From Herbiconiux solani NBRC 106740 (GTDB lineage: Bacteria > Actinomycetota > Actinomycetes > Actinomycetales > Microbacteriaceae): DNA of 64,000 nt. The stretch is taken from the NCBI RefSeq assembly GCF_001571005.1, contig NZ_BCST01000007.1, forward strand, positions 124,001-188,000, given 5' to 3'. The notes below the pieces were generated by a model. That model made no database searches, was not told where the DNA came from, and saw only the letters and a program-made list of their open reading frames with translations. Below, piece after piece: positions 7,792 to 53,830 of this stretch; position 1 is the stretch's first letter, and each line of letters opens with the position of its first letter. The position numbers were made by a program, and so were the translations under genes.

Positions 7792-7864
7792 GCTGAGGGT
7801 TCTGGGCCGGGCGGGGTGCGCGCTCGGCGCGAGGGTCTTGGGTGACGCTGTAGTCCTGCTGTGC

Positions 7865-7986
7865 TAGCTGCGGCGGGGCCCGTGCTTCGCGCGGGCTCCG
7901 CCGGTCGCGCCGGTCCCTGCCCGGCGCGACGCGACATGTTCGGCTGAGGTCGCTATCGCGGCCTCGGCCTCACCCTGGGTCGTCGA
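7865..7986 (+). repeat. Intergenic structured repeat, copy 1 (forward)
   Basis: First of five copies of a dispersed element. In order: TAGCTG; a long locus-specific hairpin (CGGCGG..CCGCCG type, 7871-7903); the shared hairpin GCGCCG-loop-CGGCGC; GCGACATGTTCGG; GGTCGCTATCGCGGCC; and TCACCCTGGGTCGTCGA. It begins about 73 bases after the stop of the F420 gene. The 465-base gap 7792-8256 has no credible gene and is mostly made of this copy, its inverted partner and about 140 bases of spacer (7987-8129) that includes TATCCCACCC, also found inverted in the 44.6 kb locus. Confidence 0.8.
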
Positions 7987-8129
7987 AAACTGCCTGTCAC
8001 GTTCGTATCCCACCCACTGCTTCGGTTCGAAAATGTGGCGCGACCGGTCCTCCTTGTCGGCCTGAATGGACCCTTGCGGTCATGCCCTGCCCTGAGCTCA
8101 GGCGGGAGACCGATCGCGACGGGCCGTAC

Positions 8130-8259
8130 TCGATGACCCAGGGTGAGCGCGCGGCCGCGATAGCGACCGCACGTGAACATGTCGCCCGCGCCGGGCAGGG
8201 ACCGGCGCGGTCCGGAGCAGCCGCGCGCAGCACGGCTGCTCCGGCAGCCAGCACGGCTA
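8130..8259 (-). repeat. Intergenic structured repeat, copy 2 (inverted)
   Basis: Minus-strand copy of the same element. Read on the minus strand it begins exactly at the TAG stop codon of the YbdK-like gene (8259-8257), has a long leading hairpin (CCGGAGCAGCCG..CGGCTGCTCCGG), then the shared GCGCCG..CGGCGC hairpin, GCGACATGTTCA, GGTCGCTATCGCGGCC and TCACCCTGGGTCATCGA. With copy 1 it forms an inverted pair with the ACCCTGGGT ends facing each other. Confidence 0.8.
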
Positions 8260-9390
8260 GCTGAGCCCGTGCCTCAGCTCCTTCGTAAGCGAGGCGACCA
8301 CGGCCCGGAGGCTGCCGCCGTTCGCCTCGGCGACGCGGAGCTGACGCTGGTAACTGGCGCCGTGGTCGAGGATCAGGTTCACCTGATCGAGTTCCGCCGC
8401 GCAGCCCAGCCGCTCGGCGACCGGCGCGAGGCGGACGAGTTCGCCGCGCACCGCATCCGTCACCAGCTGCTCGTCGCCGGCGGAGTTCAGGATGATCTCG
8501 GCCTCCATCCCGTATCGCGCCGCCCGCCACTTGTTCTCGCGCACGTACCAGGGCTGCATGGTCGGCAGCTCTTCGCCGTCGTCGAGGCGCTGCGACATGT
8601 CGTCGACGAGGCACTGGATGAGCGCGGCGACCGCGCCGATCTCCTCGGGGCTCGAGAGCCCGTCGCAGGCGCGCATCTCGACCGTGCCCCATTGCGGGCT
8701 GGGGCGGATGTCCCATCGCACCTCCGTGTGGTCACTGATCACGCCGGTGCGGATGAGGTCGTCGACGTACTCCTCGTAGTTCGCCCAGCTGCCGAACTGA
8801 TAGGGCAGACCCGCGGTGGGCAGCTGCTGGAACATCAGCGCGCGATTGCTCGCGTACCCCGTGTTCACCCCGCCCCAGAACGGGCTCGACGCACTGAGCG
8901 CCTGCAGGTGCGGGTAGTAGTTGAGCAGCGAGTTGACGATCGGCAGCGCCTTCTCGCTGTCGTCGATGCCGACGTGCACGTGGATTCCCCAGATCATCAT
9001 GTTGCGCCCCCACCACTGGGTGCGGTCGATGAGCTTGTGGTACCGCTCCTTGTCGGTGACGGTCTGGTCGAACCACTGGCCGAAGGGGTGCGACCCGGCG
9101 CACATCAGCTCGACGTCGAGCGGGTCGGTGATGGCGCGCACCTCGGCGAGCTGGGACTGCAGGTCGTCGACCGCATCCTTCACGTGGTGGTGCACCTTCG
9201 AGACGAGCTCGACCGTGTTGAGCAGCAGTTCGCCCGTGATCTGCGGATGCTCGGACCCGTCCGGGCCCTTCAATGACTCCAGCACCTCGGCCGCGACCGA
9301 GACGAGATCGCCCGAGCTCTGCTCGACGAGGGCGACCTCCCACTCGATCCCGAGGGTGGATCGCTCTGACGGCGCGAAGCTGATCTGCAT
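8257..9390 (-). CDS. YbdK-family carboxylate-amine ligase (glutamate-cysteine ligase-like)
   Basis: A 377-residue GCS2-family enzyme. The N-terminus has TLGIEWEVALVEQ (the metal/substrate-binding GxExE region of the family), followed by AGSHPFGQW, WWGRNMMIWGIHVHVGID and VEMRACD-type segments. Family members ligate an amine to a carboxylate with ATP; some make gamma-glutamylcysteine, but the substrate of YbdK-like proteins is mostly unknown. The ATG at 9390 has a GAGAGG ribosome site nine bases upstream. Its TAG stop coincides with the edge of repeat copy 2. It is divergent from rpsP. Confidence 0.88.
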   Translation of the reverse strand: MQISFAPSERSTLGIEWEVALVEQSSGDLVSVAAEVLESLKGPDGSEHPQITGELLLNTVELVSKVHHHVKDAVDDLQSQLAEVRAITDPLDVELMCAGSHPFGQWFDQTVTDKERYHKLIDRTQWWGRNMMIWGIHVHVGIDDSEKALPIVNSLLNYYPHLQALSASSPFWGGVNTGYASNRALMFQQLPTAGLPYQFGSWANYEEYVDDLIRTGVISDHTEVRWDIRPSPQWGTVEMRACDGLSSPEEIGAVAALIQCLVDDMSQRLDDGEELPTMQPWYVRENKWRAARYGMEAEIILNSAGDEQLVTDAVRGELVRLAPVAERLGCAAELDQVNLILDHGASYQRQLRVAEANGGSLRAVVASLTKELRHGLS

Positions 9391-20909: not shown

Positions 20910-21806
20910 ATGTCTCAGTACGGGGAGCCGTTGCACACGATCGTCCACATCAGCGACACGCATTTCCTGGCGGGGGAGAAGCCGCTGTACGGCACCGTCG
21001 ACACGGATGCGACGCTCACGCAGGCGCTCGTGCAGCTCGAGCGGTCTGGGATCCGGCCCGAGCTGCTCGTGTTCACGGGGGACATCGCCGACCTGGGTGA
21101 AGACGACGCATACCGGCGCATCCGGGGCATCGTCGAGCCGGCCGCCGAACGGCTCGGGGCGCGGGTGCTGTGGGTCATGGGCAACCACGACGACCGCGCG
21201 CGGCTCCGCGCCGAACTGCTCGACGAGGAGCCGGTCACCGAGCCGGTCGTCACGAGCATCCGGCTCGGCGGTCTCAGGGTGATCGCCCTGGACACGAGCG
21301 TTCCGGGCTACCACCACGGCGAGCTATCGGAGGAGCAGCTGCTCTGGCTCCGCGCCGAGCTCGCCCAGCCGGCACCCGAGGGCACGATCGTGGCGCTGCA
21401 TCACCCGCCGATCCCGACGACGATCCCGCTGATGCCGATCCTCGAACTGCAGCGCCAGCACGAACTCGCCGCGGCGATCGAGGGCACCGACGTCCGCGCG
21501 ATCCTGGGCGGGCACCTGCACTACTCGACGACGAGCATGTTCGCCGGCGTCCCCGTGTCGGTGGCCGCGGCCACGTGCTACACGATGGATGTCGCGGCGG
21601 TCCGCGGTCGCCTCACCGGCCTGGGCGGAGGACAGGCGTTCTCGCTCGTGCACGTCTACGGCGATCGCGTGGTGCACTCGACGGTGCCGATCGGCGACTT
21701 CCCGATCGTCTCGGGCTTCGACAACGAGTTCGTCGACCGCGTCTACGCCCTCCCCGAACCTGAACAGCGCGAGGCCTTCTCCCGCCACGTCACCCCGCAG
21801 ACCTAG
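20910..21806 (+). CDS. Calcineurin-like phosphodiesterase (CpdA/Icc-like)
   Basis: A 298-residue class III-type metallophosphoesterase. All metal motifs are visible: SDTHF (D-x-H), GDIAD, GNHDD, LHHPPI and GGHLHYS. Relatives hydrolyse cAMP or other phosphodiesters; the substrate here is not determined. ATG 20910 is chosen over upstream in-frame codons because conserved sequence begins there (TIVHISDTHF) and GAGACT lies six bases before it. The 198 bases before it hold no other recognisable feature. Confidence 0.88.
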   Translation: MSQYGEPLHTIVHISDTHFLAGEKPLYGTVDTDATLTQALVQLERSGIRPELLVFTGDIADLGEDDAYRRIRGIVEPAAERLGARVLWVMGNHDDRARLRAELLDEEPVTEPVVTSIRLGGLRVIALDTSVPGYHHGELSEEQLLWLRAELAQPAPEGTIVALHHPPIPTTIPLMPILELQRQHELAAAIEGTDVRAILGGHLHYSTTSMFAGVPVSVAAATCYTMDVAAVRGRLTGLGGGQAFSLVHVYGDRVVHSTVPIGDFPIVSGFDNEFVDRVYALPEPEQREAFSRHVTPQT

Positions 21807-21842
21807 CGGAGCCCTGCGCAGAGCCGAATCCTGGCGGCAAGG

Positions 21843-21937
21843 CCTGAGCGCATGCGCCCGAGCCATGCGGGCGACGCCTGAGCGCATGCGCCCGAGCCGA
21901 ATCCAGGCCGCGAGACCCAGGCGCATGCGCCCGAGTC
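21843..21937. repeat. Three repeats of a GCGCATGCGC palindrome upstream of xerC
   Basis: Two identical 22-base units (21843-21864 and 21877-21898, CCTGAGCGCATGCGCCCGAG-type) and one close variant (21916-21937) each centre on GCGCATGCGC. Centre-to-centre spacings are 34 and 39 bases. They occupy the gap between the phosphodiesterase and xerC (start 22029). They could be binding sites or a small expanding repeat. They do not look like dif. Confidence 0.7.
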
Positions 21938-21938
21938 A

Positions 21939-23549
21939 TCAGCAGTGGTCGAGACGCAGTGTGGGCACCCGAGCCCCTCTCACGGCGGGGCACCTCGGTG
22001 AGGCGCCCCGACGAGGCATGCTGGGGGGATGAAGCTGGCGGAGGCGCGCGCGGGGTACGAGCGGTACCTGCGGCTCGAGCGCGGGTACTCCGCGAACACC
22101 GTGCGCAGCTACGGCGCCGACCTCGCCGACCTCGAACGGTTCGCGGCCGAGCGGGGCGCGAGCGACGTCGAGGCACTCGATCTCGCCCTGTACCGCGACT
22201 GGCTCTGGGAGGCGTCTCAGCGCGAGCTCGCCAAGTCGACGCTCGCGCGGCGAGCCGCGACCGCGAAGACGTTCTCGGCATGGTTGCGGCGGAGCGGGGC
22301 GCTCGAGACGGATCCGGCCGTGCGACTCCGCGCGCCGAAGCCCGACCGGTCGCTGCCGCGCGTGCTCTCCGGAGATTCGATGGACGAACTTCTGGGCTGG
22401 CTCAAGACCGCCGCCGCGGAGGGGGAGCCGGGCGCGCTGCGCGATCTGGCCGTCGTGGAGCTGCTGTACGCATCCGCTCTTCGCGTCAGCGAACTCGTGG
22501 GCATCGACCTCGACGACCTCGACCTCGATCGGCGCACCGTTCGCGTGGTGGGCAAGGGCTCGAAGGAGCGGATCGTGCCATTCGGACGGCCCGCGCAACT
22601 CGCCGTCACGGACTACCTCGGGCGGGGGCGCTCGGCACTGCTCGCGCGGTCCGAGAGCGGGCGGGCGGCTCGCGCCCTCTTCGTCGGCACCCGCGGCGGC
22701 AGGCTCGGCACCCGCGCGGTCTACCAGTTCGTCGCGCGGCTGCTCGAGAGCATCCCGGGCAGCGGCCCGGCCGGCCCCCACGCCCTGCGGCACACCGCCG
22801 CCACGCACCTGCTCGACGGCGGCGCCGACCTGCGCGCCGTGCAGGAGATGCTCGGCCATGCGAGCCTCGGCACCACCCAGATCTACACGCACGTCACGGT
22901 CGAGCGGCTCCGTGCCTCGTACCAGGCGGCCCATCCCAGGGCCTGACCGCCCGAGGCCTGACCGCTCGGGCAGCTCGCCCACCGGCAGCAGCCGAGCCCG
23001 CGGGATCCCGCCGATCAGCGCCCGCGGGTTCACATACTCCCCGTCGAGCCGCACCCCGAGGTGCAGGCACCCCGCCCCGCAATGCCCTCCCGACGCCACG
23101 GCCCCGATCGACTGCCCCCGGGTCACCGCCGCCCCCACCACGACGGATGCGGTGACCGGCTCCACGCTCGACCGGTAGCCCCCCGGATGCTCGATCGCCA
23201 CGACGGGCCGGCCACCCACCGAGCCCGCGAACGCGACCACCCCGCCCGCCGGCGCAAGCACCTCGGTGCCCGTGACGACCGCGAGATCGGCACCCCGATG
23301 ACCGGGCCCGTACCGGGAGGCCGGCGCCCGGTACTCGGCGATCACGACCGACGGAGAGACCGGCCACATCCAGCGCGCGCCGCCGCTCGGGCCGGCATCG
23401 GTCGCGGCCAGGCCCAGGCACGCCGACGAGCACATCCCGAGGCACAGCGCCGAGCACAGAAACGACCGCACCAACGGCCACCTCAAAGACCACACCACCC
23501 CGACCACAACACCCCACGACCCGCCGACGAGAACCATCCCCCCACCCAA
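21939..23549 (-). CDS. M23 family metallopeptidase-like secreted protein, reading frame runs on antisense through xerC
   Basis: The conserved part is 22990-23549: a secretory signal (LVRSFLCSALCLGMCSSACLG), a Trp/Pro linker (WMWPVSPSVVIAEY), and a LytM-like domain with H-x3-D (GHRGADLA) and the closing GHCGAGCLHLGVRLDGEYVNPRALIGG. These enzymes cut peptidoglycan stems or act as regulators. The usual HxH is CxH here, so the first histidine is missing. Homologues stop soon after a segment like IPRARLLP, but this frame stays open to TGA 21941-21939, adding over 330 Arg/Gly-rich residues opposite xerC. The start is also uncertain, with several possible GTG/ATG codons. Confidence 0.65.
   Translation of the reverse strand: MGGGMVLVGGSWGVVVGVVWSLRWPLVRSFLCSALCLGMCSSACLGLAATDAGPSGGARWMWPVSPSVVIAEYRAPASRYGPGHRGADLAVVTGTEVLAPAGGVVAFAGSVGGRPVVAIEHPGGYRSSVEPVTASVVVGAAVTRGQSIGAVASGGHCGAGCLHLGVRLDGEYVNPRALIGGIPRARLLPVGELPERSGLGRSGPGMGRLVRGTEPLDRDVRVDLGGAEARMAEHLLHGAQVGAAVEQVRGGGVPQGVGAGRAAARDALEQPRDELVDRAGAEPAAAGADEEGASRPPALGPREQCRAPPPEVVRDGELRGPSEWHDPLLRALAHHANGAPIEVEVVEVDAHEFADAKSGCVQQLHDGQIAQRARLPLRGGGLEPAQKFVHRISGEHARQRPVGLRRAESHGRIRLERPAPPQPCRERLRGRGSPRERRLGELALRRLPEPVAVQGEIECLDVARAPLGREPFEVGEVGAVAAHGVRGVPALEPQVPLVPRARLRQLHPPSMPRRGASPRCPAVRGARVPTLRLDHC
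22029..22946 (+). CDS. xerC: Tyrosine recombinase XerC
   Basis: XerC acts with XerD at dif to resolve chromosome dimers. At 305 residues it is standard length. The N-terminal core-binding domain is ~1-105. The catalytic set is complete: R152 (LRVSELVGI), K176 or K179 (VGKGSKE), H251 and R254 (HALRHTAATH), H277 (LGHASLG) and Y286 (TQIYTHV). CATGCT lies six bases before the ATG, with a G run between. A triple palindrome lies upstream and an M23 peptidase converges on its 3' end. Confidence 0.94.
   Translation: MKLAEARAGYERYLRLERGYSANTVRSYGADLADLERFAAERGASDVEALDLALYRDWLWEASQRELAKSTLARRAATAKTFSAWLRRSGALETDPAVRLRAPKPDRSLPRVLSGDSMDELLGWLKTAAAEGEPGALRDLAVVELLYASALRVSELVGIDLDDLDLDRRTVRVVGKGSKERIVPFGRPAQLAVTDYLGRGRSALLARSESGRAARALFVGTRGGRLGTRAVYQFVARLLESIPGSGPAGPHALRHTAATHLLDGGADLRAVQEMLGHASLGTTQIYTHVTVERLRASYQAAHPRA
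22950..22972. terminator. Hairpin after xerC
   Basis: GCCCGA (22950-22955) pairs with TCGGGC (22967-22972) around an 11-base loop, three bases after the xerC stop. It would sit at the expected end of the converging M23 gene. Confidence 0.4.
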
Positions 23550-43508: not shown

Positions 43509-44518
43509 GCATCCCCCCGCCCTCCGCCGGCAACCTGCGCGGAGCCGTCGACCTGTCCTCGCTCGTGAACCGGGCCCGCTCGGGTTCGGCCGGGGGTCCC
43601 GGTGCGCCTTCGGCGCCGGGTGCTCCGACCATCGCGGGTTCCGCCGCCGGCCAGCCCTCGGCCACCGGCGGCAGCGTCGCGGGCGTGGTTCCCTCGCTCG
43701 TGCTCGAGGGCAACGACGCGAACTTCACGGAGATCATCGAGCTCTCGAACACCGTCCCGGTGATCGTCGACCTCAAGGCCGACTGGGCCGAGGCGAGCAA
43801 GGAGCTCACCGCGGTGCTGACGAAGGTGGTGCGCGAGTACGCCGGCCGCTTCGTGCTGGTCGGGGTCGACGCCGAGTCGAGCCCGCAGCTGGCGCAGGCG
43901 TTCCAGGCGCAGTCCGTGCCCACGGTCGCCGCGATCGTCGGCGGACGGCCGGTGTCGCTGTTCCAGGGCGCGTACCCCGAGTCCGAGGTGCGGGCCGTGC
44001 TCGAGCAGGTGCTCCAGCTCGCCGCGCAGAACGGCGTGACCGGCACGGTCGTGGCCGAGGGCGCCGACCCCGACGCCGCGCCCGCCGAGCCCGTCGAGGA
44101 GCCGCTGCCCCCGCACCACGCCGAGGCCTACGACGCGATCGCGAACGGCGACTACGCCACCGCCATCCAGGAGTACCAGACGGCGATCGCCCAGAACCCG
44201 CGCGACGCCCTCGCCGTGGCCGGGCTCGCGCAGGTGAGCCTGCTGGCGCGCCTGCAGGACAAGTCGCTCGACGAGATCCGCTCGGCCGCCGCGGCCGGCC
44301 CCGACGACCTGGACGCCCAGCTCGCCGTCGCCGACCTCGACGTCTCCGGCGGTCACCTCGAGGACGCCTTCGACCGCCTGCTCACCCTCTTCCCGAAGCA
44401 GGACCCCGACGGCAAGACCGCCATCCGCACCCGCCTCCTCGAGTACTTCGAGGTCGCGGGGGCCGAGGACCCGAGGGTGGTGGCGGCGCGCCGGCGCCTC
44501 ACTGGTTTGCTGTATTAG
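43505..44518 (+). CDS. Thioredoxin-fold TPR co-chaperone (YbbN/CnoX-like), no CxxC
   Basis: 337 residues. A Gly/Pro/Ala-rich linker (~1-60) precedes a thioredoxin fold (~62-175): VPVIVDLKADWAEASKEL, FVLVGVDAESSPQLAQAFQAQSVPTV. The usual CxxC position is AEAS (95-98), so it is redox-inactive. A TPR-like helical region follows (AYDAIANGDYATAIQEYQTAIAQNP). CnoX proteins hold unfolded clients for GroEL/EF-Tu. The GTG overlaps the preceding stop. Its TAG stop marks the start of repeat copy 3. Confidence 0.87.
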   Translation: MSIPPPSAGNLRGAVDLSSLVNRARSGSAGGPGAPSAPGAPTIAGSAAGQPSATGGSVAGVVPSLVLEGNDANFTEIIELSNTVPVIVDLKADWAEASKELTAVLTKVVREYAGRFVLVGVDAESSPQLAQAFQAQSVPTVAAIVGGRPVSLFQGAYPESEVRAVLEQVLQLAAQNGVTGTVVAEGADPDAAPAEPVEEPLPPHHAEAYDAIANGDYATAIQEYQTAIAQNPRDALAVAGLAQVSLLARLQDKSLDEIRSAAAAGPDDLDAQLAVADLDVSGGHLEDAFDRLLTLFPKQDPDGKTAIRTRLLEYFEVAGAEDPRVVAARRRLTGLLY

Positions 44519-44640
44519 CTGCCGGGATGCGCGTGCTTCGCGCGCGTATCCCGGGCTGCGCCGGTCCCTGCCCGGCGCAGCGCGACATGTTCGGCTTCGG
44601 TCGCTAGCGCGGCCGAGGCCTCACCCTGGGTCATCGAGAA
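44516..44640 (+). repeat. Intergenic structured repeat, copy 3 (forward)
   Basis: It begins with the TAG stop of the thioredoxin-fold gene (TAGCTG), then a locus-specific hairpin (CCGGGATGCGCG..CGCGTATCCCGG), the shared hairpin GCGCCG..CGGCGC, GCGACATGTTCGG, GGTCGCTAGCGCGGCC and TCACCCTGGGTCATCGA. It leads directly into the terminator stem at 44639. Confidence 0.8.
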
Positions 44641-44705
44641 AGGCCCGCAGCTTACGTTTCCGTCCCGATAGTTCTGGGTGGGATAGGGAGCTGCGGGCCT
44701 TTTTT
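44639..44705. terminator. Strong bidirectional terminator inside the repeat pair
   Basis: AAAGGCCCGCAGCT-type arms (44639-44652 and 44689-44702) are perfectly complementary over 14 bp, with a T run at 44700-44705 on the plus strand and an A-rich run (GAGAAA) on the other side. The 36-base loop can form a small stem of its own. This is the clearest intrinsic terminator in the window and serves the convergent thioredoxin-fold and glgB genes. Confidence 0.85.
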
Positions 44706-44808
44706 CGACGACCCAGGGTGAGCGCGGCGCCGGGAGGTGCGACCGAAGGCCGCGCCTCCCGACGGCACGCGAACATGTCGCCCGCGCCGCAGAGGCGGCG
44801 GCGCGGCA
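44706..44808 (-). repeat. Intergenic structured repeat, copy 4 (inverted, divergent sequence)
   Basis: Minus-strand copy abutting the glgB stop. The shared hairpin keeps its GCGCCG..CGGCGC ends but has a different interior (GCGCCGC-loop-GCGGCGC), so pairing is kept while sequence changes. GCGACATGTTCG and TCACCCTGGGTCGTCGA are conserved; the middle is a GGGAGGCGCGG..CCTCCC hairpin. It shows no separate leading hairpin, unlike the other copies. With copy 3 it forms an inverted pair around the terminator. Confidence 0.75.
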
Positions 44809-44809
44809 A

Positions 44810-47029
44810 TCAAGCCCTATGGGGCTTGAGGTACAGGGCCGCCAGCGGGGGGAGGGTGAGCTCGACCGAGGCGGGACGACCGGACCAGGGGACGTACTCG
44901 GCCTCGACCGAGCCGTAGTTGCCGACGCCCGAGCCGCCGTACTCGACCGCATCCGTGTTGACGAGCTCGTCCCAGCGGCCGCCGAAGGGTAGGCCGACCC
45001 GGTAGGGCCCCACGGGAGCGCCCGAGAAGTTCATCAGCACCGCGATCGGGTTGCCCTCGGAGTCCCAGCGGAGGAACGACACGAGGTTCTGCGACGACGA
45101 GCCGCCGTCGATCCACTCGAAGCCCGCGGGCTCGTTGTCGAGCGCCCACAGCGCCGGGTTCTCCTTGTAGACCGTGTTCAGCCGCGCCACGAGGCCGAGG
45201 AGCTGCTGGTGCACGGGCTGGTCGAGGATCCACCAGTCGAGCCCGCGCTCCTCGCTCCACTCGGACGGCTGCCCGAACTCCTGGCCCATGAACAGCAGCT
45301 GCTTGCCCGGATGCGCCCACATGAATCCGAGGTACGACCGCAGGTTCGCGAGCTTCTGCCAGTGGTCACCCGGCATCTTGCTGAGCAGCGACCCCTTGCC
45401 GTGCACGACCTCGTCGTGCGAGATCGGCAGCATGAAGTTCTCACTGAAGGCGTAGAGGAACGAGAAGGTGATCTCGCCGTGGTGGTACGACCGGTACATC
45501 GGGTCCTGCTCGATGTAGTTGAGCGAGTCGTGCATCCACCCCATGTTCCATTTCATGCCGAAGCCGAGGCCGCCGCGATCGGTCGCGTGCGTGACGCCGG
45601 GCCACGAGGTGGACTCCTCGGCGATCATGACGATCCCGGGGCTGGTCTTGTAGGCGGTCGCCGTGACCTCCTGCAGCAGGCTGATCGCCTCGAGGTTCTC
45701 GCGGCCCCCGTACTGGTTCGGGATCCACTCGCCCTCCTTGCGGGAGTAGTCGAGGTAGAGCATGCTCGCCACCGCATCGACCCGCAGGCCGTCGATGTGG
45801 AACTCCTGCAGCCAGTACAGCGCGTTCGCGACCAGGAAGTTGCGCACCATCCGGTTGCCGAAGTCGAAGACCAGGGTTCCCCAGTCGGGCTGCTCGCCGC
45901 GGCGGGGGTCGGGATGCTCGTACAGCGCCTCGCCGTCGAACCGCGCGAGCGCCCATTCGTCCTTGGGGAAGTGGCCGGGCACCCAGTCCATCAGCACGCC
46001 GAACCCGGCCTGGTGCAGCCGGTCGATCAGGTAGCGCAGGTCGTCGGGGTGGCCGAAGCGGGAGGTCGGGGCGTAGTAGCTGGTGACCTGGTAGCCCCAT
46101 GACCCGCCGAACGGATGCTCGGCGAGCGGCATGAACTCCACGTGCGTGAACCCGAGGTTCTCGAGGTAGGGGATCAGCTCGTCGGCCAGCGACCGGTAGT
46201 CGAGCCCCGGCTTCCACGACCCGAGGTGCATCTCGTAGACGCTCATCGGCTGGGTGTGTGGGTTGACGGCGGCACGCTTGGTCATCCAGGCGTCGTCCTG
46301 CCACTCGTAGCGGCTGGTGCCGATGACGGAGGCGGTGAGCGGCGGGACCTCGGTGTACCGGGCCATCGGGTCGGCGCGGCTGACCCACTGCCCGTACTGA
46401 GTGAGGATCTCGTACTTGTAGTTGCCGCCGTCGGTCAGCCCCGGGATGAACAGCTCCCACACGCCGGTGCCGCCGAGGCTCCGCATCGAGTGGCGCACGC
46501 CGTCCCAGCCGTTGAAGTCGCCGATCACCCGGACGGCCTTGGCGTGCGGCGCCCAGACCGCGAACGCGGTTCCCGCGGTCGCGGCATCCACACCCCACGC
46601 CTCTTCGACGCGGGAGCCGAGGACCTCCCAGAGCTTCTCGTGCCGGCCCTCGCCGATCAGGTGCAGGTCGAGCTCGCCGAGCGTGGGCGCGAAGCGGTAC
46701 GGGTCGTCGGCGGTCCAGACGCTGCCGTCGTCGTAGCGCGCCTCGACCAGGTAGTCGTTGAGTCCGGTGAGCGTGAAGCCCTGCCAGATGCCGCCGTACA
46801 GGTGGGTCAGCTCGACGCGGGCGCCGTTGGACAGCACCGCGCTGACCTCGGTCGCCAGCGGGCGAAGGGTGCGGATGACCGTCACGGGATCGGAGACCCC
46901 GTCGGCCTCGACCAGGTGCTGGCCGAGCACCGCGTGCGGGTTGTAGTACGACCCGGCCGCGACCTGCTGGAGCACCTCCAGCGGGAAGTCGGGGAGGGTG
47001 AGGGCGGTTGCGCCGTCGGGGGAGGGCAT
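44810..47029 (-). CDS. glgB: 1,4-alpha-glucan branching enzyme
   Basis: GlgB introduces alpha-1,6 branches in glycogen. The 739-residue GH13 enzyme has two N-terminal CBM48-like domains (~1-240). In the catalytic domain, D418 (IDGLRVDAV) is the nucleophile and E471 (MIAEEST) the acid/base, with [15 protein letters not shown] further on. Its ATG overlaps the glgE stop, so the two are translated together: GlgE extends chains and GlgB branches them. Confidence 0.96.
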
Positions 47030-53619: not shown

Positions 53620-53690
53620 GCGATCCGGCGCCGACGCCGTAGGCGAGGCAGCAAGCGCTCGCGGCGATCGAAAGCCGCAGGCCGCGCCCA

Positions 53691-53830
53691 CTCAACCCAA
53701 GGTGAGGGCGCGGCCGCGAAGCGACCGCACCCGAACATGTCGCGTCGCGCCGGGCAGGGACCGGCGCGACCGCGCGAGCGCCCCTCGCCGCAGGCGAGAG
53801 GTGCCCGCGCGCAGCCAAACAGCGCAGCTA
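53691..53830 (-). repeat. Intergenic structured repeat, copy 5 (single, inverted)
   Basis: Read on the minus strand it begins at the TAG stop of glgX (TAGCTGCGC), has a locus-specific hairpin (CACCTCTCGCC..GGCGAGGGG), the shared GCGCCG..CGGCGC hairpin, GCGACATGTTCGG, GGTCGCTTCGCGGCC and TCACCTTGGGTTGAG. It has no inverted partner on the other side of the gap (53620-53690), unlike the other two loci. The junction is again convergent. Confidence 0.78.

Follow-up and report, generated by a model that had tools for sequence, protein, structure and literature searches.

Three convergent gene junctions in a 64,000-nt stretch of the Herbiconiux solani NBRC 106740 genome (the window in what follows) carry five copies of a structured intergenic repeat, and the question is what kind of element this is. 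A preliminary description of the window had proposed either a class of 3'-end elements for convergent genes or a small non-autonomous mobile element, with selection acting on RNA structure rather than on a protein. The observation is genuine and larger than that description said.

Results

A three-hairpin unit at three convergent junctions

The repeat unit is about 140 nt long as modelled and is made up of as many as three imperfect hairpins, H1, H2 and H3, set one after another. On the strand of the upstream gene, the order from 5' to 3' is an optional H1, H2, GCGACATG, H3 and a CC(C/T)TGGGTCRTCGAGTANGGCCYG tail. A covariance model (R1; 140 positions, 36 pairs) was derived from 12 copies found in this genome. 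In a covariance search of the genome, its matches in the window are exactly the five reported copies, and sequence and model together bear out their places and block order. Genes were predicted with our own codon-usage caller, trained on the window, and carry Pfam names; the calls confirm that all three junctions are convergent (7009-7791/8257-9390, 43505-44518/44810-47029 and 52102-53619/53828-55861). The features are the following.

7857-7996, + strand: copy 1, whole covariance-model span
About 7871-7903 (H1), 7904-7930 (H2), 7931-7937 (GCGACAT), 7938-7973 (H3) and 7974-7996 (tail), + strand: parts of copy 1, from a single-copy fold and anchoring
8120-8258, - strand: copy 2, model span; faces copy 1 tail to tail
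8143-8178 (H3), 8186-8210 (H2) and 8212-8244 (H1), - strand: parts of copy 2, from its own fold
8257-8259: TAG stop of the GCS2 gene, at the 5' edge of copy 2 (gene call)
44508-44647, + strand: copy 3, model span
44522-44554 (H1), 44555-44581 (H2) and 44589-44624 (H3), + strand: parts of copy 3, by analogy with the folded copies
44516-44518: TAG stop of the thioredoxin/TPR gene, inside the 5' end of copy 3 (gene call)
44695-44835, - strand: copy 4, model span; partner of copy 3
44782-44806 (H2) and 44718-44774 (long H3), - strand: parts of copy 4, from its own fold; no standard H1
About 44810-44829: short leading hairpin of copy 4, from the fold; overlaps the TGA (44810-44812) of the GlgB-like gene
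44634-44708, both strands: terminator-like hairpin (A-run, T-run, long loop) between the tails of copy 3 and copy 4
53678-53824, - strand: copy 5, model span; no facing partner among the model matches
53702-53736 (H3), 53744-53770 (H2) and about 53771-53812 (long H1), - strand: parts of copy 5, by analogy with the folded copies
53828-53830: TAG stop of the CBM48/alpha-amylase gene, just before copy 5 (gene call)

Three of the five window copies and one further copy of the same genome, folded on their own, give z-scores of -5.0 to -6.5 against shuffles, and the hairpin at 44634-44708 folds at -47.8 and -40.3 kcal/mol on the two strands (z -7.7 and -6.7). Simple terminator scans (loops of 3-8 only) and promoter scans of the three window junctions returned nothing. 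Some details of the preliminary description need correction. The copy at 44706-44808 had been said to lack a leading hairpin, which is wrong: a short TCAAGCCC-CATA-GGGCTTGA hairpin is present, unlike those of the other four copies. The common tail holds as part of the block order, but that of the copy at 53691 has diverged (TCACCTTGGGTTGAG). Elsewhere in the window, at 21821-21939, a 46-nt repeat occurs as three imperfect copies, with spacings of 34 and 39 nt, directly behind a gene ending at 21806 (TAG); it bears no obvious resemblance to the hairpin element.

The family in the genome and in the genus

Sixteen Herbiconiux genomes (G000-G015) were compared, G000 being the one that contains the window. 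There, the R1 search finds 47 matches at E-values up to 0.1, 43 of them full length with E-values from 2.6e-49 to 1e-8, the 12 model-building copies matching by construction. Fold z-scores and E-values together exclude a chance origin of the five window copies. At an E-value of 0.01, 15 of the 16 genomes have a match and the counts, drawn from at most 150 scored candidates each, range from 0 to 91 per genome: 45, 91, 30, 0, 1 (a weak match), 75, 7 and 42 for G000 to G007, and 27, 31, 26, 15, 1, 50, 41 and 17 for G008 to G015. In a tree of two genes and 15 genomes (G008, where one gene is missing, is left out), the genomes with 0-1 matches, G003, G004 and G012, form one clade nested in the genus, a position that points to loss of the repeat or to its failure to expand there.

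An exact pattern of the repeat occurs in 88 stretches of a species-genome collection; among the 80 matches listed, 79 are genus-level (Herbiconiux plus the assemblies B27 and 3FA27C10, taken as genus members G008 and G010) and one is gammaproteobacterial. The same pattern has no match in viral_contigs, which lends no support to a viral origin. At an E-value of 0.001, R1 matches at least 22 of 299 Microbacteriaceae genomes, six of them Herbiconiux and 16 others with weak matches (best 44.5 bits), in a search that took the best 10 candidates per genome under strict filters and under-counts weak relatives outside the genus. We did not meet this repeat family before in the literature or the Rfam release searched. 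Rfam 15 has no match above the gathering score in the window, and at 7800-8320 yields, up to an E-value of 5, only low scorers far under their cut-offs, mostly microRNA families. The portions of the literature returned by our searches describe no such repeats for Microbacteriaceae, and the excerpts of the Herbiconiux pangenome paper (PMC10011130) make no mention of them.

Variants of the unit

We assembled 178 unique copies, an uneven sample with 44 from G000, 38 from G005 and 1-14 from each of the others. H1, about 33 nt long, is optional; its lower stem varies from copy to copy and its usual apex is GTGC-TTC-GCGC. By eye, the copies fall into type A, with H1, and type B, without a standard H1, in which H2 mostly lies a few bases past the stop codon and the loop of H3 is often long and extended. 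H2, CGCCG(G/C)..(C/G)CGGCG, has a small loop and a near-invariant stem that contains a pyrimidine-pyrimidine mismatch (by eye). The stem of H3 has up to 16 positions, two of them mismatched in most copies, and ends in GGTCGC..GCGGCC; overall, the model stems have 10 to 16 pairs, and CGTC sits in the tail, several bases past H3. A 5' motif is found in 93 of the 178 copies (CTAG in 35, CTGG in 19, TTAG in 13), GTAG being outside the 12 commonest. Single folds had suggested a closing helix of GCTGTGCT at the 5' end with AGTACGGC in the tail; we reject it for want of covariation (471 of 702 cells paired vs 475 in shuffles, 78 copies).

Two further observations concern the 5' side. A 37-nt unit (about GTGCCGGCAGGTGAAGGCGGCTTAGACGGTCTTTTTC) stands once to about four times in tandem between stop codon and element at L013 (1407-1484) and L015 (1360-1491) of the window's own genome and, by eye, also at L017, L021 and L026. 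At L028, L047, L061 and L068 a called ORF enters the element, takes its last residues from the 5' part and stops inside H1.

Compensatory change in the stems

For covariation, 132 distinct copies were aligned to R1, an alignment that favours R1 for 36 of the 40 pairs scored, which are the 36 model pairs plus four outer pairs of H3. Paired cells amount to 93.3%, against 34-50% in slid controls, and cells with double changes number 898, against 91-147; 31 of the 40 pairs show double changes, and none of 500 shuffles matches any of five covariation measures. The four added H3 pairs contribute little, the outermost two being nearly constant and the inner two unpaired in 87 copies. Checks that do not use the model agree. 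For H3, arms were paired outward from ACAT and CCNTGGG; 25 of the 178 copies lack an anchor and the remaining 153 reduce to 82 distinct arm pairs, in which 994 of 1312 positions are Watson-Crick, against 792 ± 9 and at most 824 in 1000 shuffles. For H1, paired outward from an apex anchor present in 77 of 178 copies, there are 52 distinct arm pairs; 513 of their 572 positions are Watson-Crick, where shuffles give 329 ± 8 and at most 358.

Because compensatory double changes far exceed the controls, the fold is established: compensatory change keeps the hairpins paired apart from a small number of fixed irregularities. In H3 these are a T-G at position 13 (81 of 82 arm pairs) and at position 8 (58 of 82), and the mismatches T-C at position 3 (48 of 82) and C-T at position 4 (50 of 82). 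Neither a lack of further copies nor a lack of covariation, named earlier as outcomes that would count against the family, was found.

The wobble pairs bear on which strand, and which nucleic acid, is folded. When all positions are counted on the gene-sense strand, G-T outnumbers A-C by 33 to 6 in H1 and by 150 to 48 in H3, as would fit folding of that strand; the six A-C in H1 are far under the 34 of shuffles. Without positions 4-5 of H1, G-T and A-C stand at 3 vs 4, and at positions 2-7 and 9 of H3 at 8 vs 13; position 10 of H3 is C-A in 31 of 82 arm pairs, a wobble on the other strand only. The G-T excess is confined to a few fixed positions, and the data therefore fit RNA or single-stranded DNA alike. 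Of the proposed selection on RNA structure, the folded single strand stands, but the G-T and A-C counts do not single out RNA.

Placement beside stop codons and in facing pairs

Neighbouring genes were analysed for 168 copies, the 10 of 178 that had no gene call on one side being dropped. In 137, the element follows a stop codon in sense, at a convergent junction in 93 and with a co-directional next gene in 44; 25 lie antisense before a gene start and six between divergent genes. As background, 7 of the 52 gene junctions in the window are convergent. In 90 of the 137 copies, 90 nt or less separate the stop from ACATG (farthest, 520 nt), and no called ORF contains the core of any of the 178. 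The element's head (the H1/H2 end) is mostly near an ORF end and tends to face the stop or start of that ORF. A 3'-end element of convergent genes, as first proposed, describes the 93 convergent copies of 168 but is too narrow, because 25 copies are antisense before a start and, in all, 31 of 168 are not in sense after a stop. The stops upstream of the copies are TAG in 81, TGA in 47 and TAA in 9; those of the window genes are TAG in 19, TGA in 31 and TAA in 2.

Within the fetched stretches, neighbouring copies up to 600 bp apart are arranged tail to tail in 30 cases, in tandem in three and head to head in none. The facing pairs are separated by spacers of 28-283 bp, and five of the 30 have an A-run before GGCC in both tails (by eye). 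At L009 and L011, two different loci, the pairs have an almost identical central spacer with a terminator-like hairpin, and such a pair may have been copied as a whole. We rejected the idea that partners avoid matching H3 arms (mean identity 0.717 vs 0.728 in the null, for the 25 of 30 pairs with both anchors); the identity of pair tails, 0.582 vs 0.555 ± 0.016 in 30 pairs, is too weak for a claim of co-evolution.

Filled and empty junctions

The junction between the thioredoxin-TPR and GlgB genes holds one or two copies in 9 of the 16 genomes (G000, G001, G002, G005, G007, G009, G011, G014 and G015, by eye) and is empty in G003, G004, G006, G012 and G013; in G010 the neighbour is another gene, and in G008 a match lies beside the thioredoxin-TPR gene at a contig end. 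The thioredoxin-TPR gene stops with TAG in the filled G000, G001, G002, G005, G009, G011 and G015, and also in G010, and with TGA in the filled G007 and G014 and in all five empty genomes. At the GCS2 junction, among the 15 genomes that have the gene, copies are found in G000, G002, G005, G010, G013, G014 and G015, seven genomes are empty, and G007 has a remnant of a pair that is whole in G014. In this remnant (L234) a deletion has fused the two H1 hairpins of the former pair at a short GC stretch common to both (by eye). Judging from it, part of the presence/absence pattern is loss.

For 94 of the 178 copies the closest copy by alignment belongs to the same genome, against a mean of 24 and a maximum of 44 with shuffled labels. 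Of the 31 copies from the pairs G007/G014 and G011/G015, 16 have their closest copy in the sister genome and 4 in their own; sister species have copies in common, and movement is therefore not fast. Gene conversion could also produce the higher likeness within genomes. Filled and empty junctions, this likeness and the nearly copy-free nested clade together look like the habit of a dispersed mobile repeat. The earlier suggestion of a small non-autonomous mobile element is the one best supported, by the filled and empty orthologous sites and the within-genome likeness, but no mobiliser was found.

Candidate mobilisers

The Y1 transposase of the RAYT kind (PF01797) is detected in only one of the 16 genomes, G004, which has one weak element match, with 5 of 14 controls positive. 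The reverse transcriptase RVT_1 (PF00078) is found in three of 16 (G003, G004 and G008, two of them copy-poor) and in none of G000, G001, G005 and G013. IS110 (PF01548) is found in G006, with G007 below the cut-off, and in none of these four copy-rich genomes. The presence of these enzymes does not track copy number, and they are unsupported as drivers. The search for a Y2 transposase had no positive control genome and is uninformative. By eye, no transposase near the copies and no recurrent neighbour gene that might drive them was recognised among the 25 largest protein groups from 778 called neighbour proteins, and the ORFs of one 1.5-kb stretch between two copies include no recognised transposase.

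The H2 core outside Herbiconiux

The 19-base H2 core occurs in 30 of the 299 family genomes. Besides Herbiconiux, these represent 10 of 84 other genera, several of them with a single copy; the reversed core, as a control, gives 0 in every genome listed. The ten genera g5, g8, g16, g28, g43, g45, g48, g53, g57 and g72 have exactly the same core. Of 37 sites outside Herbiconiux (one counted twice, as L078 and L259 are one place; L265 and L285 are excluded), 20 follow a stop in sense (13 of them at 12 nt or less), 11 are before the start of a divergent gene and six have no call. At the sites fetched, the repeats of other genera that bear H2 often occupy the same place close to an ORF end, but H1 and the 3' module are different or missing and some form tandem arrays. 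The g53 copy L074, a weak model match (26.8 bits), also has a following hairpin and CCTTGGG...CACGGCCCG. At L261/L285 (G163) and L279 (G071), H2 is repeated in tandem, the periods being 44 and 102 bp. Genus g45 has a different repeat, of TCGAGTAG...CGTATCGAGACC type, in several clustered copies (L086 1879-2260, L070 2539-2815). L070, L071, L072, L086, L098 and L099, being from other genera, fragments or duplicates, were left out of the copy set.

It is possible, though we put it forward tentatively, that these repeats form a mobile hairpin-repeat class across the Microbacteriaceae, in which H2 would be the common head, joined to genus-specific modules and moved by a single-strand-specific enzyme new to REPs, the Herbiconiux form being a three-hairpin 3'-end element with a two-way terminator variant.

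Discussion

Folded single-strand hairpins are the recognised form of IS200/IS605-type elements, and the Herbiconiux repeat would be like them in this respect; it differs in that Y1 transposase is absent outside G004 and no pair of left and right ends is recognised. REPs and BIMEs offer further likenesses. They are palindromes with irregular stems, scattered through extragenic DNA and for the most part downstream of coding regions, which occur singly or as inverted dimers in very variable copy number (PMC3733652, in excerpt). The Herbiconiux family is likewise a many-copy extragenic palindromic repeat with inverted dimers, the 30 facing pairs. It differs from them in that a unit can string together as many as three hairpins, where a REP is a single 20-40 bp palindrome, in its tag (CTAG, CTGG or TTAG, not GTAG) and in that no copy-rich Herbiconiux genome has a Y1 transposase. 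Tagged REPs are listed for Proteobacteria and several other phyla, the GTAG class being tied to Y1 transposases, and Actinobacteria are not among the phyla given for GTAG repeats in the excerpts of PMC3733652. The nearest precedent is the CGTC-tagged REPs, which are said to lack a dedicated transposase and form dimers; they have stems of 8-9 bp with CGTC at one end and are listed there for five phyla, not including Actinobacteria (PMC3733652, in excerpt). Here, in contrast, CGTC is in the tail and not at a hairpin end, and the stems have 10 to 16 pairs. Untagged REP-like families, which have no conserved end motifs, are also mentioned for other bacteria, among them the actinobacterium M. tuberculosis (PMC3733652, in excerpt). 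The preliminary description did not recognise the repeat as REP/BIME, ERIC or an insertion sequence; there is indeed no Rfam match and no accompanying REP transposase, but the behaviour is REP/BIME-like, because the copies are extragenic, close to stop codons, arranged in inverted pairs and built of hairpins with fixed irregularities.

Based on the above data, we propose that the repeats are probably (at a probability of about 0.6) a REP/BIME-like family of short non-autonomous dispersed elements, whose mobiliser was not found. Copies would spread by transposition or copying, with a host or mobile enzyme that recognises their folded single strand in the way TnpA-REP recognises REPs. Copies in coding or promoter DNA would be lost, so that those beside stop codons remain, and a preference for (C/T)TAG-like sites would perhaps add to this placement. 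Resident copies would fold into strong hairpins at the 3' ends of mRNAs, with the paired tails giving a two-way terminator in some cases; a role at 3' ends is putative. An effect on the upstream gene is plausible by analogy: ribosome stalling has been reported for REPs that lie no more than 15 nt from a stop (PMC12306157, in excerpt).

The alternative that fares best treats the repeat as a cis-acting RNA element of mRNA 3' ends, selected on the transcript for 3'-exonuclease protection, termination or translation-coupled control, its spread being incidental. The sense position of 137 of 168 copies behind a gene and the strong covariation suit it, as do the two-way terminator-like fold of the pair centre at 44634-44708, the A-runs before GGCC in both tails of 5 of 30 pairs (by eye) and the excess of G-T over A-C on the gene-sense strand when all positions are counted. 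That excess, however, sits at a few fixed positions, G-T being no commoner than A-C elsewhere, and position 10 of H3 wobbles on the other strand only. Moreover, 31 of the 168 copies are found between divergent genes or, in antisense, ahead of a start, and G003, G004 and G012 manage with 0-1 matches. At the thioredoxin-TPR/GlgB junction these three empty genomes bear a terminator-like hairpin instead, whereas the filled G001, G002, G005 and G009 retain a long inverted repeat downstream of the element (both by eye). We regard this explanation as rather unlikely.

The 30 facing pairs with spacers of 28-283 bp and the central spacer common to L009 and L011 could also be read as a MITE of a DDE transposon, in which the tail-to-tail pair would be the unit and its two copies the long terminal inverted repeats. 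This is improbable: for most copies no partner faces them at 600 bp or less (the 178 copies include 30 such pairs, a count that misses partners below threshold or beyond the fetched stretch), and no transposase was recognised among the neighbours. The setting for comparing ends and duplications between filled and empty sites is one of relatives that differ by at least 5% at the two genes compared. Template-switch correction of quasi-palindromes in replication copies one arm into the other and would give paired changes as a by-product, not through selection on the fold, but this origin is very improbable because correction should erase irregularities that in fact persist genus-wide, such as the T-G at position 13 and the mismatches at positions 3 and 4 of H3.

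A REP/BIME-like family of this kind is of interest on several counts. It is large and strongly covarying, it belongs to an actinobacterial genus, and none of the mobilisers that could be tested is present in its copy-rich genomes. With genomes of 0-91 matches, pairs of close relatives among them, the spread of transposase-less REPs becomes testable by comparison of strains. The family also supplies natural stem variants for probing the roles of hairpins at mRNA 3' ends.
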